Assembly (NCBI GenBank): GCA_945865425.1 | Contig: CAMBFN010000002.1 | Location: forward strand, 1 to 52,297 | Length of the DNA: 52,297 nt | Direction: 5' to 3' | DNA from: Comamonas sp. lk | GTDB lineage: Bacteria > Pseudomonadota > Gammaproteobacteria > Burkholderiales > Burkholderiaceae_C | Shown: one piece after another, positions 5,305 to 13,678 of the stretch | How positions within the stretch are numbered: the stretch's first letter is position 1 | How the letters are laid out: each line of letters begins with the position of its first letter | The notes under the pieces: generated by a model | What the model was told of the DNA's origin: nothing | Seen by the model: only the letters and a program-made list of their open reading frames with translations | The model's database searches: none | Made by a program: the position numbers and the translations under genes

Positions 5305-6537
5305 ATGCATCCTGACGCCCAATCGCTGTGGCGTCTTCCCCAATGGGCTTTTGCGGTGCTGCTGGCGGTGCTGGGCATGTTGGGGCCGTTTTCCATCGAT
5401 ACCTACTTACCGGCTTTTGCTGACATTTCTGCTTCGCTAGGCACTACGCCTTTGCACATGCAGCAGACTTTGTCGGCTTACTTGTTTGGCTTTGCATTTA
5501 TGTCGCTGTTTCACGGAACGATTTCCGACAGCTTTGGTCGCCGCCCGGTGGTGCTCTGGGGCTTGGCGGTGTTCACCTTGGCCTCGATGGGGTGCGCGCT
5601 TTCGCAAAGCATCGGGCAGCTGATTTTTTTCCGTGCACTGCAAGGCTTTTCCACCGGCGCAGGCATTGTGGTGGCACGTGCGGTAGTGCGCGATATGTAC
5701 CCGCCCTCGCAAGCGCAAAAAGTGATGAGCCAGATCACGATTTACTTCGGCATTGCCCCCGCGATTGCGCCGCTGATCGGCGGGCAGTTGTTGCTGTGGG
5801 GTAGTTGGCACTTGATATTTTGGTTCCTCACCGCGATCGGCGTGGTTTTGTGGATCGCTAATTACCGGCTCTTGCCCGAGACGCTACACATCAGTCTGCG
5901 CCAGCCTTTTCAAGTGCGGCACTTGATGGCTGGTTACTGGCAACTGGGCTCGGACCCGCGCTTTGTGTCGCTCGCATTGGCCAGCGGCATTCCGTTTAAC
6001 GGCATGTTTTTGTATGTGCTCAGCGCGCCGGTGTTTTTGGGCGAGGTGCTGCATTTAGCACCGCAGCATTTTTTTTGGTTTTTTCTGTTAACCATCGGCG
6101 GCATCATGGCCGGGGCCTGGATCAGCGGGCAGGTGGCCGGACGCATAACGCCCAAGCGCCAGATCCGCAACGGCTTTGTCATCATGCTGTGCATCGGGGT
6201 GGTCAATTTGGTCGCCAATGTGCTGTTCGCCGCCCATGTCAGCTGGGCCTTGTTTCCGGTAGCAATTTTTGCCTTTGGTTGGGCCATGATGGTGCCAGTG
6301 GTCACACTGCTGGTGCTGGACTTGTACCCCGAGCGGCGCGGCATGGCTTCCTCGCTGCAAAGTTTTATTGGCTCGCTGGCCAATGCCGTCGTCGCCGGTG
6401 TCATCTCACCTTTGGTGATGCATTCAGCGGTCGCGCTGGCTGCGACGTCGATTTGCATGATGGGCATTGGGCTGGTGGCCTGGGTACATATGCGCAAGCG
6501 CTGGCCGGCGATTGGCAACGAGATTCTCAAGGCTTGA
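5305..6537 (+). CDS. MFS transporter, Bcr/CflA-type drug resistance family
   Basis: 12-TM protein; 'MLGPFSIDTYLPAFADISASLG', 'GTISDSFGRRPVVLWGLAVF', 'RALQGFSTGAGIVVARAVVRDMY'. Confidence 0.9.
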   Translation: MHPDAQSLWRLPQWAFAVLLAVLGMLGPFSIDTYLPAFADISASLGTTPLHMQQTLSAYLFGFAFMSLFHGTISDSFGRRPVVLWGLAVFTLASMGCALSQSIGQLIFFRALQGFSTGAGIVVARAVVRDMYPPSQAQKVMSQITIYFGIAPAIAPLIGGQLLLWGSWHLIFWFLTAIGVVLWIANYRLLPETLHISLRQPFQVRHLMAGYWQLGSDPRFVSLALASGIPFNGMFLYVLSAPVFLGEVLHLAPQHFFWFFLLTIGGIMAGAWISGQVAGRITPKRQIRNGFVIMLCIGVVNLVANVLFAAHVSWALFPVAIFAFGWAMMVPVVTLLVLDLYPERRGMASSLQSFIGSLANAVVAGVISPLVMHSAVALAATSICMMGIGLVAWVHMRKRWPAIGNEILKA

Positions 6538-6572
6538 CGCGGGCGTAGGGCAGCGCGCCAAGCTGCCATATA

Positions 6573-6588
6573 CTGTATTTATTTACAG
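6573..6588. promoter_or_regulatory. LexA (SOS) box upstream of imuA
   Basis: CTGT-ATTTATTT-ACAG (CTGT-N8-ACAG), within tACTGTATTTATTTACAGTa, upstream of the imuA-imuB pair. Confidence 0.92.
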
Positions 6589-6600
6589 TATTTTTAGCCC

Positions 6601-7386
6601 ATGTCCGCCTTGCCTGCTCAAAGCCCCGGCCTGCCCGAACGCATTGCGCCGGGGCTGCTGCGCGCCGATGTTTGGCGAGCCGATGCGCTGGCCGCACCGC
6701 GTGTGCAGACCTTGTCCAGCGGCGATGCAGCGCTGGACGCCCAATTGCCTGGTGGCGGTTGGCCGGTTGGCGCGCTGACCGAATTGCTGCAAGCCCCGGG
6801 TGTGCATAACGAATGGCGCTTGCTATTGCCCGCGCTGGCGCGCTGTGGCAGCGGCCCGGTGGTACTGGTGGCGCCGCCCTATCTGCCGTTTGCGCCCGCC
6901 TTGCAGGCCCAGGGTTTGCAGGCGCAGCGCCTGCTCTGGCTGGGCGCGCCGGACAGCCAGGGCACGGCCGCCCTGTGGCTGAGCGAGCAGGCGCTGCGCT
7001 GCGCTGCGGTGGATGCGGTCTTGGCCTGGCTGCCGCAGGTGCGCCCCGAACAATTGCGTCGTTTGCAGTGGGCCGCTGCAGAACACCACAAATTGCTTTT
7101 CGTGCTGCGCCCCAGCGCCGCGCAGACCCAGGCCTCGCCTGCTGTGCTGCGCTTGTTATTGGACTTGGACGATGGCGCGGCGCTTTCGCTGCACATCCTC
7201 AAGCGCCGCGGCCCGCCACTGACCGGGCCCCTGCATCTGGCGGCACGCCCAGCAGCGCTGTTGCGCGTACTGGCCAGCGCCAAGCCGGCGCCTGCGGCAG
7301 AGTCTGCACCAAGCCTGCAGGCCGCCCCAGCGCAGACCACCTCAGCGCACATCGCTGTCTTACAACCGCGCAGGGCGACGCCATGA
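6601..7386 (+). CDS. imuA: Translesion synthesis-associated protein ImuA (RecA/SulA-like)
   Basis: 'LRADVWRADALAAPRVQTLSSGDAALDAQLPGGGWPVGALTELLQ' ImuA N-terminus; next to imuB and a LexA box. Confidence 0.9.
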   Translation: MSALPAQSPGLPERIAPGLLRADVWRADALAAPRVQTLSSGDAALDAQLPGGGWPVGALTELLQAPGVHNEWRLLLPALARCGSGPVVLVAPPYLPFAPALQAQGLQAQRLLWLGAPDSQGTAALWLSEQALRCAAVDAVLAWLPQVRPEQLRRLQWAAAEHHKLLFVLRPSAAQTQASPAVLRLLLDLDDGAALSLHILKRRGPPLTGPLHLAARPAALLRVLASAKPAPAAESAPSLQAAPAQTTSAHIAVLQPRRATP

Positions 7387-8906
7387 AGCCCTACTGGCTG
7401 GCTGTGTGTCCGCAAGACGCGCATCACGCTGACCGTGATGCCGGTGCAATTGGCTATGCGCCATTACCGACCCTGCCGCTTGCAAGCGCTTTGCGTGGCG
7501 CTACTTCCCCGGATGCGGGAACAGAGTTTTCAGACGCTGCAGTCTGGGCGGACCCGCTGGCGGCGCTGGCCTGGTGGAGTTTGCAATTTACGCCCTGGGT
7601 GGCGCAAGTACAGCAGGCTTTAGTGCTGGAAATCTCGGCCAGCGAGCGCTTGTTTGGTGGACGCAAGGCGCTGGTGCAGGCGCTGTTGGAGTCCGGCCAC
7701 GCGCCCCTGCCTATGCAGTACGCGCATGGCGAGAGCGCTTTGCTCGCGCTGGCGCGCCTGGCCTGCGATGCTTTACAACAGGCGGGCGAATTGGCCCAGC
7801 CGCCCTTACCACCCGATGCTTTGCCCCTATACACGCTGGCCGCAGCGCAGGCCCATCTGCCCACGCTGGAGCGTTTGGGCTGTACCACCTGGGGCCAGTT
7901 GCGCGCCTTGCCGCGTGGTGGTGTGGCCCGCCGCTTTGGCGCGCCCCTGCTGACGGCTTTGGATAAGGCTTATGGCGCCGCGCCCGAGACCTATGCCTGG
8001 TTGCGCCTGCCCGAGGTGTTTGAGGCACCGCTGGAACTGGCCGCGCAGGTCGAATCGGCCGCAGCCATGTTGTTTGGCGCGCGCCGTTTGCTGGCGCAGT
8101 TGCAACTGTGGTTGCGCGCCCGCCAGCACGGGGTGCTGGCGCTAGAGTTGCGTTGGCAACTCGATGCGCGCCGTGCCAATGCCCGCCACCGGGACGCTTG
8201 GCACCAAGGCGATGGCTATGGCCGCCTGCACTTGCGCACTGCTGAGCCCACCCAGGACCCGCGCCACTTGGAGCGTCTGCTGGCCGAACACCTGGCGCAG
8301 GTCACGCTGCCTGCGCCGGTTTTGTATTTGCGCCTGCGTACGCTAGAAACCTGCGCATTGCGCGGCCAAAGCCTGAGCCTCTTGCCCGATGAAATACGCA
8401 GCGGCGACAGCCTGCACCATTTGCTTGAGCGCGTGGCCGCGCGCCTGGGGCCTGACAGCGTGCGCGCCGTGACCTTGCAAGATGAGCATCGCCCCGAGTG
8501 CATGCAGACCTGGCAAGCGCTGGGCGCGCAGGCAAGCGCCGTGGTGTCAACCGGCATAGGACGACCCAGCAGTGTCGCAGCGCAAACTGGCATGGCCTTA
8601 GGCACCCGCGCCACATCGCAAGCAAGCACCATCGCCGCGCAGGCGCTTTATCCCACTTGGTTGTTGCCCCAGGTGCGCAGCCTGCCCTGCGGCGCTGATG
8701 GTTTGCCCCAGTGGGACGGCCCGCTGGCCTTGCTGGCCGGGCCGCAGCGCTTGGAGCTGCAGGCCTGGGACACGGGGCCGCAAGTGCAGCGCGACTACTA
8801 CATCGCCCACAGCCCTGGCCAGGGTTTGCTCTGGGTCTATCGCGAGCGTTTAGGCCTAGCCCAGGGGCAGGGGGCCGCCTGGTATTTGCATGGCTTGTTT
8901 GCCTGA
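7383..8906 (+). CDS. imuB: ImuB, Y-family-polymerase-like mutasome protein
   Basis: ATG at 7383 overlaps the imuA stop (ATGA); 'PLYTLAAAQAHLPTLERLGCTTWGQLRALPRGGVARRFGAPLLTALDKAYG', clamp-motif-like 'QSLSLLPDE', C-terminal 'YLHGLFA'. ORF-track start at 6813 is in the wrong context. Confidence 0.9.
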   Translation: MKPYWLAVCPQDAHHADRDAGAIGYAPLPTLPLASALRGATSPDAGTEFSDAAVWADPLAALAWWSLQFTPWVAQVQQALVLEISASERLFGGRKALVQALLESGHAPLPMQYAHGESALLALARLACDALQQAGELAQPPLPPDALPLYTLAAAQAHLPTLERLGCTTWGQLRALPRGGVARRFGAPLLTALDKAYGAAPETYAWLRLPEVFEAPLELAAQVESAAAMLFGARRLLAQLQLWLRARQHGVLALELRWQLDARRANARHRDAWHQGDGYGRLHLRTAEPTQDPRHLERLLAEHLAQVTLPAPVLYLRLRTLETCALRGQSLSLLPDEIRSGDSLHHLLERVAARLGPDSVRAVTLQDEHRPECMQTWQALGAQASAVVSTGIGRPSSVAAQTGMALGTRATSQASTIAAQALYPTWLLPQVRSLPCGADGLPQWDGPLALLAGPQRLELQAWDTGPQVQRDYYIAHSPGQGLLWVYRERLGLAQGQGAAWYLHGLFA

Positions 8907-8931
8907 AGGCCTTGTGAGCTTATGCCGTGGC

Positions 8932-10287
8932 TCAAGCCAACACAGACAAAGCCCAGCCCGCCAGCGCACAGGCTGCAAGTACCTGCACTACTGGCCGCTT
9001 AAAGCGGATCAGCGCCAGCGCGGCTGCGGCAGCGATGACAGCGGATGCCACATCAAAGCGCCCGTCCACCCCTTGCGGCCAAAACACATGCTGACCAAAG
9101 AACAGCGCCAGGCTGACGATGACGCCGACCACGGCGGCGGTAATCGCGGTCAGCGGCGCGCTTAAACGTAAATCCTGGTGCGTCGATTCGATGAAGGGCC
9201 CGCCTGCCAGAATGAACACAAACGAGGGCAAAAAAGTAAACCAGGTCACCACCGTGGCGGCCAGGGCACCGGCTAAAAACAGATGGTCCGGGCCTAGCAG
9301 TGCTTGGGTGTGTCCGCCCACATAGCCTACAAAAGCCACCACCATGATCAGCGGCCCCGGCGTGGTCTCGCCCAGCGCCAAGCCATCGATCATTTGCGCC
9401 GCCGTCACCCAGCCGAACTGCTCCACGCCGCCCTGGTACACATAGGGCAGCACCGCATAGGCGCCGCCAAAAGTCAGTAGCGCCGCCTTGGTGAAAAACC
9501 AGGCCATTTGCGTCAGCGTGTGTTCCCAGCCTTGCGTCAGCAACAGCAGCGCCATGGGCACTAGCCACAGCAGTAGCCCGATGGTCAGCACTTTCACCAA
9601 ACCGGACAGCGAAAAACGAGCATGCGCGGGCGTAGGCGTATCGTCGTCAATCAAGGCCGGTGCGTGCGGCCCGGCCTTGGCTGCATGGCCGGTGCCAGCT
9701 CGAAACACTTGCGGCGCAAAGCGCCCGCCGATGGCGCCGATCAGCCCCGCACCCAGCACGATGGCCGGGAAGGGCGCTTGCAACAAATACAGCGCAAACC
9801 AGGACAGGGCCGCCAGCGCCCACAACAAACGGTGGCGCAGCGTGCGCGTGCCGATGCGCCAGGCCGCTTGCAGCACGATGGCCGTCACGGCTGGCTTGAT
9901 ACCGGCAAACAGCCCCGCCACCAACGCGGTGCTGCCAAACATCAAATAGACCCACGACAGTCCGATGAGTATGAACAGCGAAGGCAGCACAAACAACACC
10001 CCCGCCACGATGCCACCCCAAGTGCGGTGCATCAGCCAGCCCAAGTAGGTGGCCAATTGCTGCGCTTCCGGTCCGGGCAGCAGCATGCAGTAATTGAGCG
10101 CATGCAAAAACCGCGCATCCGAAATCCAACGCCGTCGTTCCACCAACTCTTCGTGCAACAGCGCAATCTGCCCGGCCGGCCCGCCAAAGCTGATAAAGCC
10201 GACCTTCAGCCAAAACGGCCAGGCCCGGCGCAGGCTGATGGGGGCTGGGGCGGTGGGGGGAGAGTTGTGGGCCGCTGGTGCGTTCAT
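8932..10287 (-). CDS. chrA: Chromate transporter ChrA (two-domain)
   Basis: 'FWLKVGFISFGGPAGQIALLHEELVERRRWISDARFLHALNYCMLLPGPEAQQLATYLGWLMHRTWGGI' and second half 'TFGGAYAVLPYVYQGGVEQFGWVTAAQMIDGLALGETTPGPLIMVVAFVGYVGG'. Confidence 0.95.
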   Translation of the reverse strand: MNAPAAHNSPPTAPAPISLRRAWPFWLKVGFISFGGPAGQIALLHEELVERRRWISDARFLHALNYCMLLPGPEAQQLATYLGWLMHRTWGGIVAGVLFVLPSLFILIGLSWVYLMFGSTALVAGLFAGIKPAVTAIVLQAAWRIGTRTLRHRLLWALAALSWFALYLLQAPFPAIVLGAGLIGAIGGRFAPQVFRAGTGHAAKAGPHAPALIDDDTPTPAHARFSLSGLVKVLTIGLLLWLVPMALLLLTQGWEHTLTQMAWFFTKAALLTFGGAYAVLPYVYQGGVEQFGWVTAAQMIDGLALGETTPGPLIMVVAFVGYVGGHTQALLGPDHLFLAGALAATVVTWFTFLPSFVFILAGGPFIESTHQDLRLSAPLTAITAAVVGVIVSLALFFGQHVFWPQGVDGRFDVASAVIAAAAALALIRFKRPVVQVLAACALAGWALSVLA

Positions 10288-10352
10288 GGTGTTTCCTGAC
10301 TTACAGCGCCGGATCCTAGGGCCGTCGCCCGTATTGAAGCGGCCTGTTTATA

Positions 10353-10368
10353 CTGTATTTTTATACAG
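10353..10368. promoter_or_regulatory. LexA (SOS) box between chrA and dnaE2
   Basis: CTGT-ATTTTTAT-ACAG (CTGT-N8-ACAG), in the divergent chrA/dnaE2 intergenic region. Confidence 0.92.
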
Positions 10369-10387
10369 TATTTAAAACGAAGCTTCC

Positions 10388-13300
10388 GTGCCCGCCGCCC
10401 CGTCACCTGCCTATGCCGAGCTGTACGCCATGAGCGCGTTCAGTTTTCAGCATGGCGCGTCTTTGCCCCAGGAGTTGGTGGCCAGGGCCAAGGCTTTGGG
10501 CTATGCGGCCTTGGCGCTGACGGACGAATGCTCTGTGGCTGGCGTGGTGCGCGCGCACGAGGCGGCGCGCGCGGCGGGCCTGCAGTTGCTGCCGGGCGCC
10601 GAGTTTGGTGTGCGCGCATCAGTTGCGCCTGCGCAGGAGGTGCTGTTTCGCTTCGTCGCCTTGCCGCACGATTTGCAAGCTTGGGGCAATCTGTGCGAGT
10701 TCATTAGCAGCGCGCGTCGCGCCGCGCCCAAGGGGCAGTACGCGCTGCATTGGCAGCCAGCGCAAGGCGGCTGGGCGGCCTGGCCGAGCTTGGCGGGCAA
10801 TGAGATTATTTTGCTTTTGCCGCCTACTTTGCCTATGGAAAAAGCCTGTGCGATTGCAGCGGCTGCGCGCGCGCACTATGGCGCGCAAGTGTGGCTAGGC
10901 GCGACGCGCAGCCTGGGTGCGCAGGACGCGCTGCACACTTTGCGCTTGCGCCAGATCGCACACCTAAGTGGCCTGCCGCTGGTGGCCGTGGGCGCGGTGC
11001 AAATGCATGTGCGTTCGCGTAAGCCTTTGCACGATGTGATCACCGCCGTGCGCTTGCGGCTGCCGGTGGCGCAGTGCGGGCGCGGCTTGCAGGCCAACGC
11101 CGAGCGGCATTTGCGCAGCCGTGCGCGTTTGGCAAGTTTGTTTGATGCAGAGCATTTAGCGAACACTTTAGAAATTGCCAGCCGCTGTCATTTTTCCTTG
11201 GACAGCTTGCGTTATCACTACCCACTGGAGGCGGTGTTACCGGGCCAAACGCCGGCGCAAACGTTACGCCATTACACCGAAGAGGGCGCGTGCGTACGCT
11301 ACCCCGCAGGCATGCCCGAGAACGTACGCGCCCAGGTGGAGCATGAGTTGGCGCTGATTGCCGAACTGAAGTACGAGATGTATTTCCTCACGGTGCACGA
11401 CATCGTGCGCTTTGCGCGCAGCCGGGGCATCTTGTGCCAGGGGCGCGGCTCGGCGGCTAATTCGGCGGTCTGCTACTGCCTGGGTGTGACCGAGGTGGAC
11501 CCTTCGCGCATGAGTGTGCTGTTTGAGCGCTTTATCTCCCGCGAGCGCGACGAGCCGCCCGATATTGATGTGGACTTTGAACACCAGCGGCGCGAAGAAG
11601 TCATCCAATACATCTACGCCAAATATGGCCGCGAGCGCGCTGCGATTACCGCGGTAGTTACCCGCTACCGCCCGCGCAGCGCGCTGCGCGATGTAGGGCG
11701 CGCGCTGCAAATTCCTGAAGCCCTAATTAACGCGCTGGCCAAAGAGCATCCCGGCATGTACGGCCGCACCGTGCTGGCCGAGCGCTTACAAAGTGCGATG
11801 GAACGTGTAAGCGCGGCACCAGCCGAAGCAAGTGACATCGCCATCCCACCACCCCGCCGCCTACAACTGTGGCTTGATCTGGCTACGCAACTACAAGGCT
11901 TCCCGCGCCACCTCAGCCAACACGTGGGTGGCTTCGTGCTGACGCAAGGCCCGCTCACCCGCATCGTGCCAGTGGAAAACGCCGCCATGCCTGAGCGCAG
12001 CATCATCCAGTGGGATAAAGATGACCTCGATACGGTGGGCTTGCTCAAAGTCGATGTGCTGGCTCTGGGCATGCTTAGCGCTATCCACCGCTGCCTGGAC
12101 TTAATAGGCCAATGGCGCGGCAAACCGCTGCGCCTGCAAGACATCCCGGCCGAAGACCCGGCGACCTACGACATGATTTGCCAGGCCGATACGGTAGGCG
12201 TGTTCCAGATCGAGAGTCGCGCGCAAATGAGCATGCTGCCGCGCCTCAAACCCCGTTGCTTTTACGACTTGGTGGTGCAAGTGGCCATCGTGCGACCCGG
12301 CCCCATTCAGGGCGGCATGGTGCATCCCTACCTCAAAGCACGCGCCAACCCGCAAGCTGTGCAATACGCCAGCGTGGCTTTGCAAGAAGTGCTCAAGCGC
12401 ACTTTGGGCGTGCCGATTTTTCAGGAACAGGTGATGCAAATCGCCATGGCAGCGGCCAACTTTAGTGGCGGCGAAGCCGATAGCCTGCGCCGTTCCATGG
12501 CCGCCTGGAAACGCCAGGGCGGGGTACAGCATTTTTACGAGCGCCTGGTCGGCGCCATGGTCGCCAACGGTTACACCCAAGACTATGCCGATGCCTTGTT
12601 CAAACAAATCGAGGGCTTTGGCGAATACGGCTTTCCCGAAAGCCATGCCGCCAGTTTTGCGCTGCTGGTTTATGTGAGCTGCTGGCTCAAATGCCACGAA
12701 CCTGCCTGTTTCCTGGCCGCCATGCTCAACAGCCAACCGCTGGGCTTTTACAGCCCCAGCCAATTGGTACAAGACGCCCGCCGCCATGCCCTCGAAGTGC
12801 TGCCCGTAGACGTGAGCTACAGCGACTGGGATTGCTCTCTCGAAAAATTGGAAAAATTGGGGTCAGAACCCAATTTCACTGCGCCTCATGGAGCGGAGCC
12901 GCGCCCGCTGGCTTGGTCGCTGAAAGGAAATGAGAAATTGGGGTCAGAACCTAATTTACAAGCGGCCATCCGCCTGGGTTTGCGCATGGTGGCGGGCTTG
13001 CATGAGCGTGTGGCTTTGCGTATCAGTGCGGCTCGCAGACAGGGGGCTTTTGCCAGTACTGAGGACTTGGCTTTGCGCTGCGGGCTGGACGCGGGCGACC
13101 TCAAAGCCTTAGCCAGCGCCGATGCTTTGTTATCGCTCAGCGGCCACCGCCGCCAGCAGGTATGGGATGCGTCTGCGCTGCACCGTGCGCCCGCGCTCTT
13201 GCAAGGCGCGCCGGTGTATGAAAAGCCGCTGGTCTTAGTCGCAGCGCATGAAGCGCAGGAAGTAATGTTTGACTATGCGGCTACTGGCCTTACTTTGCGC

Positions 13301-13678
13301 AGCCATCCGCTGCAGTTTTTGCGCGCGCGCCTTGCAGCTAAAAACCTGCTGAGTGCCGCGCAGTTGCGCGACTTGCCGCATGGCCGTTTGGTGCGCGCCT
13401 GCGGCATCGTCACCATGCGCCAGCAACCGCAAACCGCCAAAGGTGTGGTCTTTGTGACCTTGGAAGACGAGACCGGCTGCATCAACGTCATCGTCTGGAA
13501 AAGCCTGAAAGAAAAACAGCGCACTGAGCTATTGCGGGCACGTCTGTTGGCAGTCTATGGCATCTGGCAGCGCGACGAAGACAGCGGCGGCCAGGTGCGC
13601 CACTTGATAGCCAAGCGCCTGGTGGATTTGACGGATTGGTTGGGTGATTTATCCGCAGGCAGCCGGGATTTCCGCTGA
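10388..13678 (+). CDS. dnaE2: Error-prone DNA polymerase DnaE2 (ImuC)
   Basis: GTG start; 'PAYAELYAMSAFSFQHGASLPQELVARAKALGYAALALTDECSVAGVVRAHEAA', 'RGSAANSAVCYCLGVTEVDP', 'PPDIDVDFEHQRREEVIQYIY', 'FQEQVMQIAMAAANFSGGEADSLRRSMAAWKR'. Interrupted in frame by the repeat-derived segment at ~12842-12957. Confidence 0.95.
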   Translation: MPAAPSPAYAELYAMSAFSFQHGASLPQELVARAKALGYAALALTDECSVAGVVRAHEAARAAGLQLLPGAEFGVRASVAPAQEVLFRFVALPHDLQAWGNLCEFISSARRAAPKGQYALHWQPAQGGWAAWPSLAGNEIILLLPPTLPMEKACAIAAAARAHYGAQVWLGATRSLGAQDALHTLRLRQIAHLSGLPLVAVGAVQMHVRSRKPLHDVITAVRLRLPVAQCGRGLQANAERHLRSRARLASLFDAEHLANTLEIASRCHFSLDSLRYHYPLEAVLPGQTPAQTLRHYTEEGACVRYPAGMPENVRAQVEHELALIAELKYEMYFLTVHDIVRFARSRGILCQGRGSAANSAVCYCLGVTEVDPSRMSVLFERFISRERDEPPDIDVDFEHQRREEVIQYIYAKYGRERAAITAVVTRYRPRSALRDVGRALQIPEALINALAKEHPGMYGRTVLAERLQSAMERVSAAPAEASDIAIPPPRRLQLWLDLATQLQGFPRHLSQHVGGFVLTQGPLTRIVPVENAAMPERSIIQWDKDDLDTVGLLKVDVLALGMLSAIHRCLDLIGQWRGKPLRLQDIPAEDPATYDMICQADTVGVFQIESRAQMSMLPRLKPRCFYDLVVQVAIVRPGPIQGGMVHPYLKARANPQAVQYASVALQEVLKRTLGVPIFQEQVMQIAMAAANFSGGEADSLRRSMAAWKRQGGVQHFYERLVGAMVANGYTQDYADALFKQIEGFGEYGFPESHAASFALLVYVSCWLKCHEPACFLAAMLNSQPLGFYSPSQLVQDARRHALEVLPVDVSYSDWDCSLEKLEKLGSEPNFTAPHGAEPRPLAWSLKGNEKLGSEPNLQAAIRLGLRMVAGLHERVALRISAARRQGAFASTEDLALRCGLDAGDLKALASADALLSLSGHRRQQVWDASALHRAPALLQGAPVYEKPLVLVAAHEAQEVMFDYAATGLTLRSHPLQFLRARLAAKNLLSAAQLRDLPHGRLVRACGIVTMRQQPQTAKGVVFVTLEDETGCINVIVWKSLKEKQRTELLRARLLAVYGIWQRDEDSGGQVRHLIAKRLVDLTDWLGDLSAGSRDFR
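12854..12876 (+). repeat. REP-like palindrome copy 1 inside dnaE2
   Basis: AAATTGGG-GTCAGAA-CCCAATTT, perfect 8-bp stem. Confidence 0.85.
12935..12957 (+). repeat. REP-like palindrome copy 2 inside dnaE2
   Basis: AAATTGGG-GTCAGAA-CCTAATTT; same orientation and same reading frame as copy 1, offset 81 bp; 1-nt difference. Confidence 0.85.

Follow-up and report, generated by a model that had tools for sequence, protein, structure and literature searches.

A SOS mutasome kept as two LexA-boxed units in Comamonas, with a chromate-transporter gene as a probably uninvolved neighbour

Introduction

DNA damage activates RecA, upon which LexA is cleaved, and ImuA and ImuB deliver the polymerase DnaE2. 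The best-described form of this system is the imuABC SOS cassette of Proteobacteria, with which the locus analysed here shares all three gene families (ImuB by homology), LexA boxes in the promoters and an overlap of imuA with imuB. It differs from that cassette in that dnaE2 forms a separate unit with a box of its own, rather than the third gene of the operon. A single contiguous operon is a common but not an obligatory trait of the mutasome, and it is absent here, where chrA lies between the genes and the genus as a whole carries them split. A split mutasome also exists in Mycobacterium tuberculosis, which differs from the present genus in phylum and in LexA motif. There, dnaE2 (imuC) lies apart from imuA'-imuB, a known configuration (PMC3901139) and the same separation as the one described here, with imuA' in the place that imuA takes in the window (the whole 52,297-nucleotide stretch of Comamonas sp. 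lk DNA analysed). The split SOS mutasome of the window is a known kind of arrangement.

The intervening gene product belongs to the long-chain ChrA proteins, matching TIGR00937 over its whole length and above the cut-off. ChrA relatives in other taxa sampled are not linked with SOS genes, unlike the chrA gene of the window, and in the literature we found no link between chrA and SOS or LexA, or between chrA and imuB. Bearing loosely on this question, lexA mutants of P. stutzeri are sensitive to Cr(VI), and one ChrA homologue was without fitness effect (PMC5554334).

Gene content of the locus

The locus comprises an imuA-imuB pair, a chrA gene on the opposite strand and a dnaE2 gene, chrA being convergent with imuB and divergent from dnaE2 (Table 1). 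The order, strands and reading-frame coordinates given in an earlier note on this DNA hold, and ImuA, DnaE2 and ChrA match their respective families. ImuB, which in the mutasome is an inactive Y-family-like protein encoded next to imuA, gave no match to any Pfam or NCBIfam model in the profile search. It is homologous to the gene that precedes dnaE2 in other genera across the family, and its gene overlaps imuA. Owing to its short N-terminus and the missing model match, the ImuB of this group (7383-8906) could be overlooked by automatic annotation. ChrA matches PF02417 in two separate stretches and is by family a CHR chromate transporter, for which chromate efflux is a putative function. No chrB or other chromate-resistance gene was noticed beside chrA.

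Table 1. Features of the imuA-imuB, chrA and dnaE2 locus, in positions of the window.
Feature	Position	Strand	Remarks
LexA box of the imuA-imuB unit, TACTGTATTTATTTACAGTA	6571-6590		Ends 10 bp before the imuA ATG; a box also stands before imuA in congeners
imuA	6601-7386	+	NF033429, 197.5 bits (cut-off 150)
imuB	7383-8906	+	4-bp overlap with imuA; short N-terminus; homologues beside dnaE2 in other genera
chrA, long-chain CHR-family transporter	8932-10287	-	PF02417, 261.7 bits; TIGR00937, 227.2 bits (cut-off 171.7)
63-bp chrA-side interval	10288-10350		Invariant TAGGAT (chrA strand) 25 bp before the chrA ATG
Conserved regulatory core	10343-10374		TGTTTATA, LexA box (20-mer 10351-10370), then mostly TATT
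dnaE2 (GTG start)	10388-13678	+	NF004225, 1432 bits (cut-off 939)

The assembly that contains the window is fragmented into 183 contigs and 73% complete, and assembly or binning might have falsely joined an imuAB-chrA end to dnaE2. The probability of such an artefact is negligible, since the chrA-dnaE2 junction recurs with 78-95% DNA identity in five other assemblies (G278, G281, G050, G041 and G002), and imuB, chrA and dnaE2 all stand on a single contig in G002 and in G055.

LexA boxes

The two boxes claimed previously, at 6573-6588 and 10353-10368, are exact matches to CTGT-N8-ACAG. By itself, the bare 16-mer is weak evidence and not improbable in 52 kb, with a mean of 0.68 matches expected and at least two found in 16 of 100 shuffles. 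The boxes are nevertheless not chance matches, because the extended form TACTGT-N8-ACAGTA is limited to exactly two sites in the whole 2.12-Mb assembly (6571-6590 and 10351-10370) and because boxes recur at the matching places, before imuA and before dnaE2, in relatives. By sequence, both are LexA sites, that is, predicted operators. The chrA start codon was likewise confirmed to lie 65 bp from the 16-mer; the distance to the 20-mer is 63 bp. The lexA gene was not found in the window's own, 73%-complete assembly. Of 18 relatives, 17 have it, and the lexA of close relatives has its own CTGT-N8-ACAG box about 75 bp upstream.

Distribution of the split mutasome

Positions of imuB and dnaE2 were compared across 60 congeners, 40 genomes of other families in the order and 150 genomes from the family. 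In other genera of the family, the two genes are contiguous in 75 of the 96 genomes having both and apart in the remainder, where contiguous means within 700 bp and the same tally also includes the congener G202, whose two genes are 18 kb apart. Among the examined congeners, no contiguous main copy of imuAB and dnaE2 was found; the two are separated by as little as 1.3 kb in G029 and as much as about 45 kb in G009, or they lie on separate contigs. Two congeners carry, besides the split main copy, a second and contiguous imuB-dnaE2 copy (G009:C56 in G009 and G018:C38 in G018), perhaps acquired.

A contiguous representative from another genus, G149, has a single box before imuA and none before dnaE2, whereas the majority of split congeners carry two, one ahead of imuA and one shortly ahead of dnaE2. 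An exact box before the split dnaE2 was not seen in a few congeners (e.g. G013, G018, G023 and G053). Because most split dnaE2 genes across the genus have a box of their own, the two-box layout is unrelated to chrA, and the two-unit, two-box architecture is, as far as sequence can tell, the standing state of the whole genus, independent of chrA. The earlier note was right in assigning a LexA box to each half of the mutasome, as both the split and the boxes recur across the genus. In most congeners, this genus-wide split occurs with no chrA close by.

Although the intervening DNA is constantly reshuffled, the genus has retained its SOS mutasome as a pair of units with a LexA box each, and co-regulation is thus apparently maintained by two operators and not by an operon. 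Upon DNA damage, cleavage of LexA would derepress imuA-imuB (box 6571-6590) and dnaE2 (box 10351-10370) together, and ImuB and ImuA would then bring DnaE2 to stalled forks for error-prone bypass.

History of the chrA-dnaE2 junction

In the DnaE2 tree, the root of which is arbitrary, the window's subclade (support 0.99) stands apart from a sister clade (1.00). The sister clade shows a different order of genes (G048 and G056): an MFS gene, a box with imuA-imuB, dctP-dctQ-dctM, and then, on the opposite strand, chrA, lnt and corC. Partial contigs of two further members, G005 and G038, contain parts of this imuAB-dctPQM-chrA-lnt-corC order, and in G016 a TctC-type gene replaces dctPQM. The dnaE2 gene of the sister clade resides at a different locus, behind a DUF2721 gene. 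In the window's subclade, dnaE2 together with its box is attached to the upstream side of chrA. An intermediate arrangement is found in G028, with imuAB-dctPQM, opposite-strand chrA, and then the box and dnaE2, while dctPQM is absent from the window, G002 and G055. Both clades have an NmrA-like gene downstream of dnaE2, which places the new junction on the upstream side of dnaE2.

Parsimony, applied to these draft assemblies, suggests an order of events. The chrA gene would have adjoined imuAB, with the TRAP genes dctPQM in between, before dnaE2 arrived; dnaE2 would have been joined to the upstream side of chrA in the ancestor of the 14-species subclade; and dctPQM would have been lost later on the window's line.

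The earlier note had instead presented the mutasome as a cassette split by chrA, which would require that a transposed chrA inserted into an intact imuA-imuB-dnaE2 operon of this lineage. The contiguous operon is indeed the common state in the family, and chrA is inverted relative to its neighbours. However, imuAB and dnaE2 are apart throughout the genus, for the most part with no chrA in the vicinity. In the sister clade, chrA is already a neighbour of imuAB-dctPQM and dnaE2 occupies a different locus, and G028 retains dctPQM between imuB and chrA. Contradicted by G028 and the sister clade, insertion into an intact operon was rejected as very improbable. A single reciprocal inversion that swaps chrA/lnt with DUF2721/dnaE2 was also considered and is unsupported, as the lnt-corC neighbourhood of the window's clade differs and is without an adjoining DUF2721 gene.

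Within the subclade, the interval between chrA and dnaE2 occurs in two forms. In the short form, found in six of the 14 species (the window, G278, G281, G050, G041 and G002), chrA lies 62-63 bp from the box. The other eight (G055, G057, G280, G279, G021, G019, G289 and G028) carry toxin-antitoxin genes or their remnants on the side of the box that faces chrA, among them PemK, HicB with a HicA-like gene, YoeB and a PBECR2 nuclease. Each form is represented on either side of the subclade's basal split, and G021 and G028 share the junction with the PemK remnant. The interval may be a hot spot, or it may reflect exchange between species. Intervals bearing toxin-antitoxin genes or remnants can be inspected at L093 5195-6257, L095 5643-6502 and L096 5465-6749, and also in L214, L216 and L220.

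Regulation of chrA

The location of a LexA box between two divergent genes had led to the suggestion that chrA may be under SOS control. The comparisons lend this no support: no LexA box, either exact or one-off with A/T flanks, was found upstream of chrA in any of the 20 congeners with chrA elsewhere; among 80 chrA loci retrieved by similarity from the genome collection, a single one has a box within 300 bp upstream, which is about the chance level; and in eight sister species toxin-antitoxin genes or remnants occupy the chrA side of the box. On that side, TGTTTATA is unchanged across all 12 aligned clade members, with or without an adjacent chrA, and bases farther out vary. These 12 were all the sequences that the script could align, with short-form and toxin-antitoxin-separated intervals both included. 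As the core of TGTTTATA and box is the same in both forms, it travels with dnaE2, whether chrA is present or not.

Promoter elements were sought in the same region. A scan with the sigma-70 consensus returned no promoter above threshold in 8880-10440 or in 6500-6640. In the short form, the TAGGAT in front of chrA is invariant and may be the -10 element of a promoter of chrA's own. Closer to the box, TGTTTATA reads TATAAACA in the chrA direction, which is a better match to a -10 element than to a -35 element in the dnaE2 direction. Together, TTTAAA (in G281 TTGAAA, a better match) and TATAAA form a divergent promoter-like pair with 18-bp spacing, the box filling the spacer. This pair straddling the box is a weak candidate promoter for chrA.

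The pair nonetheless defines an alternative in which the dnaE2 operator has captured chrA in the short-form species, with LexA repressing both genes at a divergent TTTAAA-N18-TATAAA promoter. The divergent hexamers straddle the box as this would require, the TATAAA facing chrA does not vary among any of the aligned subclade members, and the 62-63 bp spacing is kept in six species from both sides of the basal split, which could mean constraint. Moreover, outside the lnt-corC surroundings that it has in the sister clade, chrA must have some promoter at its present site. Against this, the TATAAA flank is equally invariant where toxin-antitoxin genes or remnants adjoin it instead of chrA, and the invariant TAGGAT offers a separate element nearer to the chrA start. 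The near absence of boxes before chrA in congeners and similar loci, and the empty consensus scan, also speak against capture, which we consider unlikely. If true for the six short-form species, it would mean that the dnaE2 operator became a bidirectional LexA operator and that an oxyanion exporter came to be co-induced with the mutasome after a chance juxtaposition of genes.

Most likely, chrA is a bystander, a neighbour outside the SOS unit, and the box between chrA and dnaE2 serves dnaE2. Taken jointly with this status of chrA and with the rearrangement history proposed above, we regard it as probable that the mutasome is of the ordinary ImuA-ImuB-DnaE2 error-prone translesion-synthesis type, encoded as two LexA-repressed transcription units. 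The case cautions against assuming SOS control of a gene from an SOS box in the intergenic region beside it, and the sister species with chrA away from the box provide a natural test of SOS control.

Repeats and linkers in dnaE2

The dnaE2 gene of the window contains two exact copies of AATTGGGGTCAGAACC, at 12855-12870 and 12936-12951. This sequence is part of a quasi-palindromic repeat, in the window AATTGGGGTCAGAACCyAATT, one or two copies of which are present in the linker that connects the polymerase finger with the HhH region. The motif GGGGTCAG occurs in frame at the same linker in nine of the 13 dnaE2 genes compared, with differing insert lengths and orientations, and the repeat core has opposite orientations at this place in the window and in G055. 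The repeat is also found in dnaE2 of other genera of the family (e.g. L173 and L169), often as an inverted pair. Across 838 kb of loci surrounding these genes, nearly all matches to GGGGTCAGA fall within dnaE2, and in a further 1.69 Mb GGGGTCAGANCC was confined to dnaE2 except for one match, at about the level expected by chance. This repeat may deserve more attention than the main finding. A second linker of DnaE2, at residues ~480-487 (window ~11825-11848), has undergone large in-frame low-complexity expansions of up to ~100 residues in some congeners (G021, G045 and G007).
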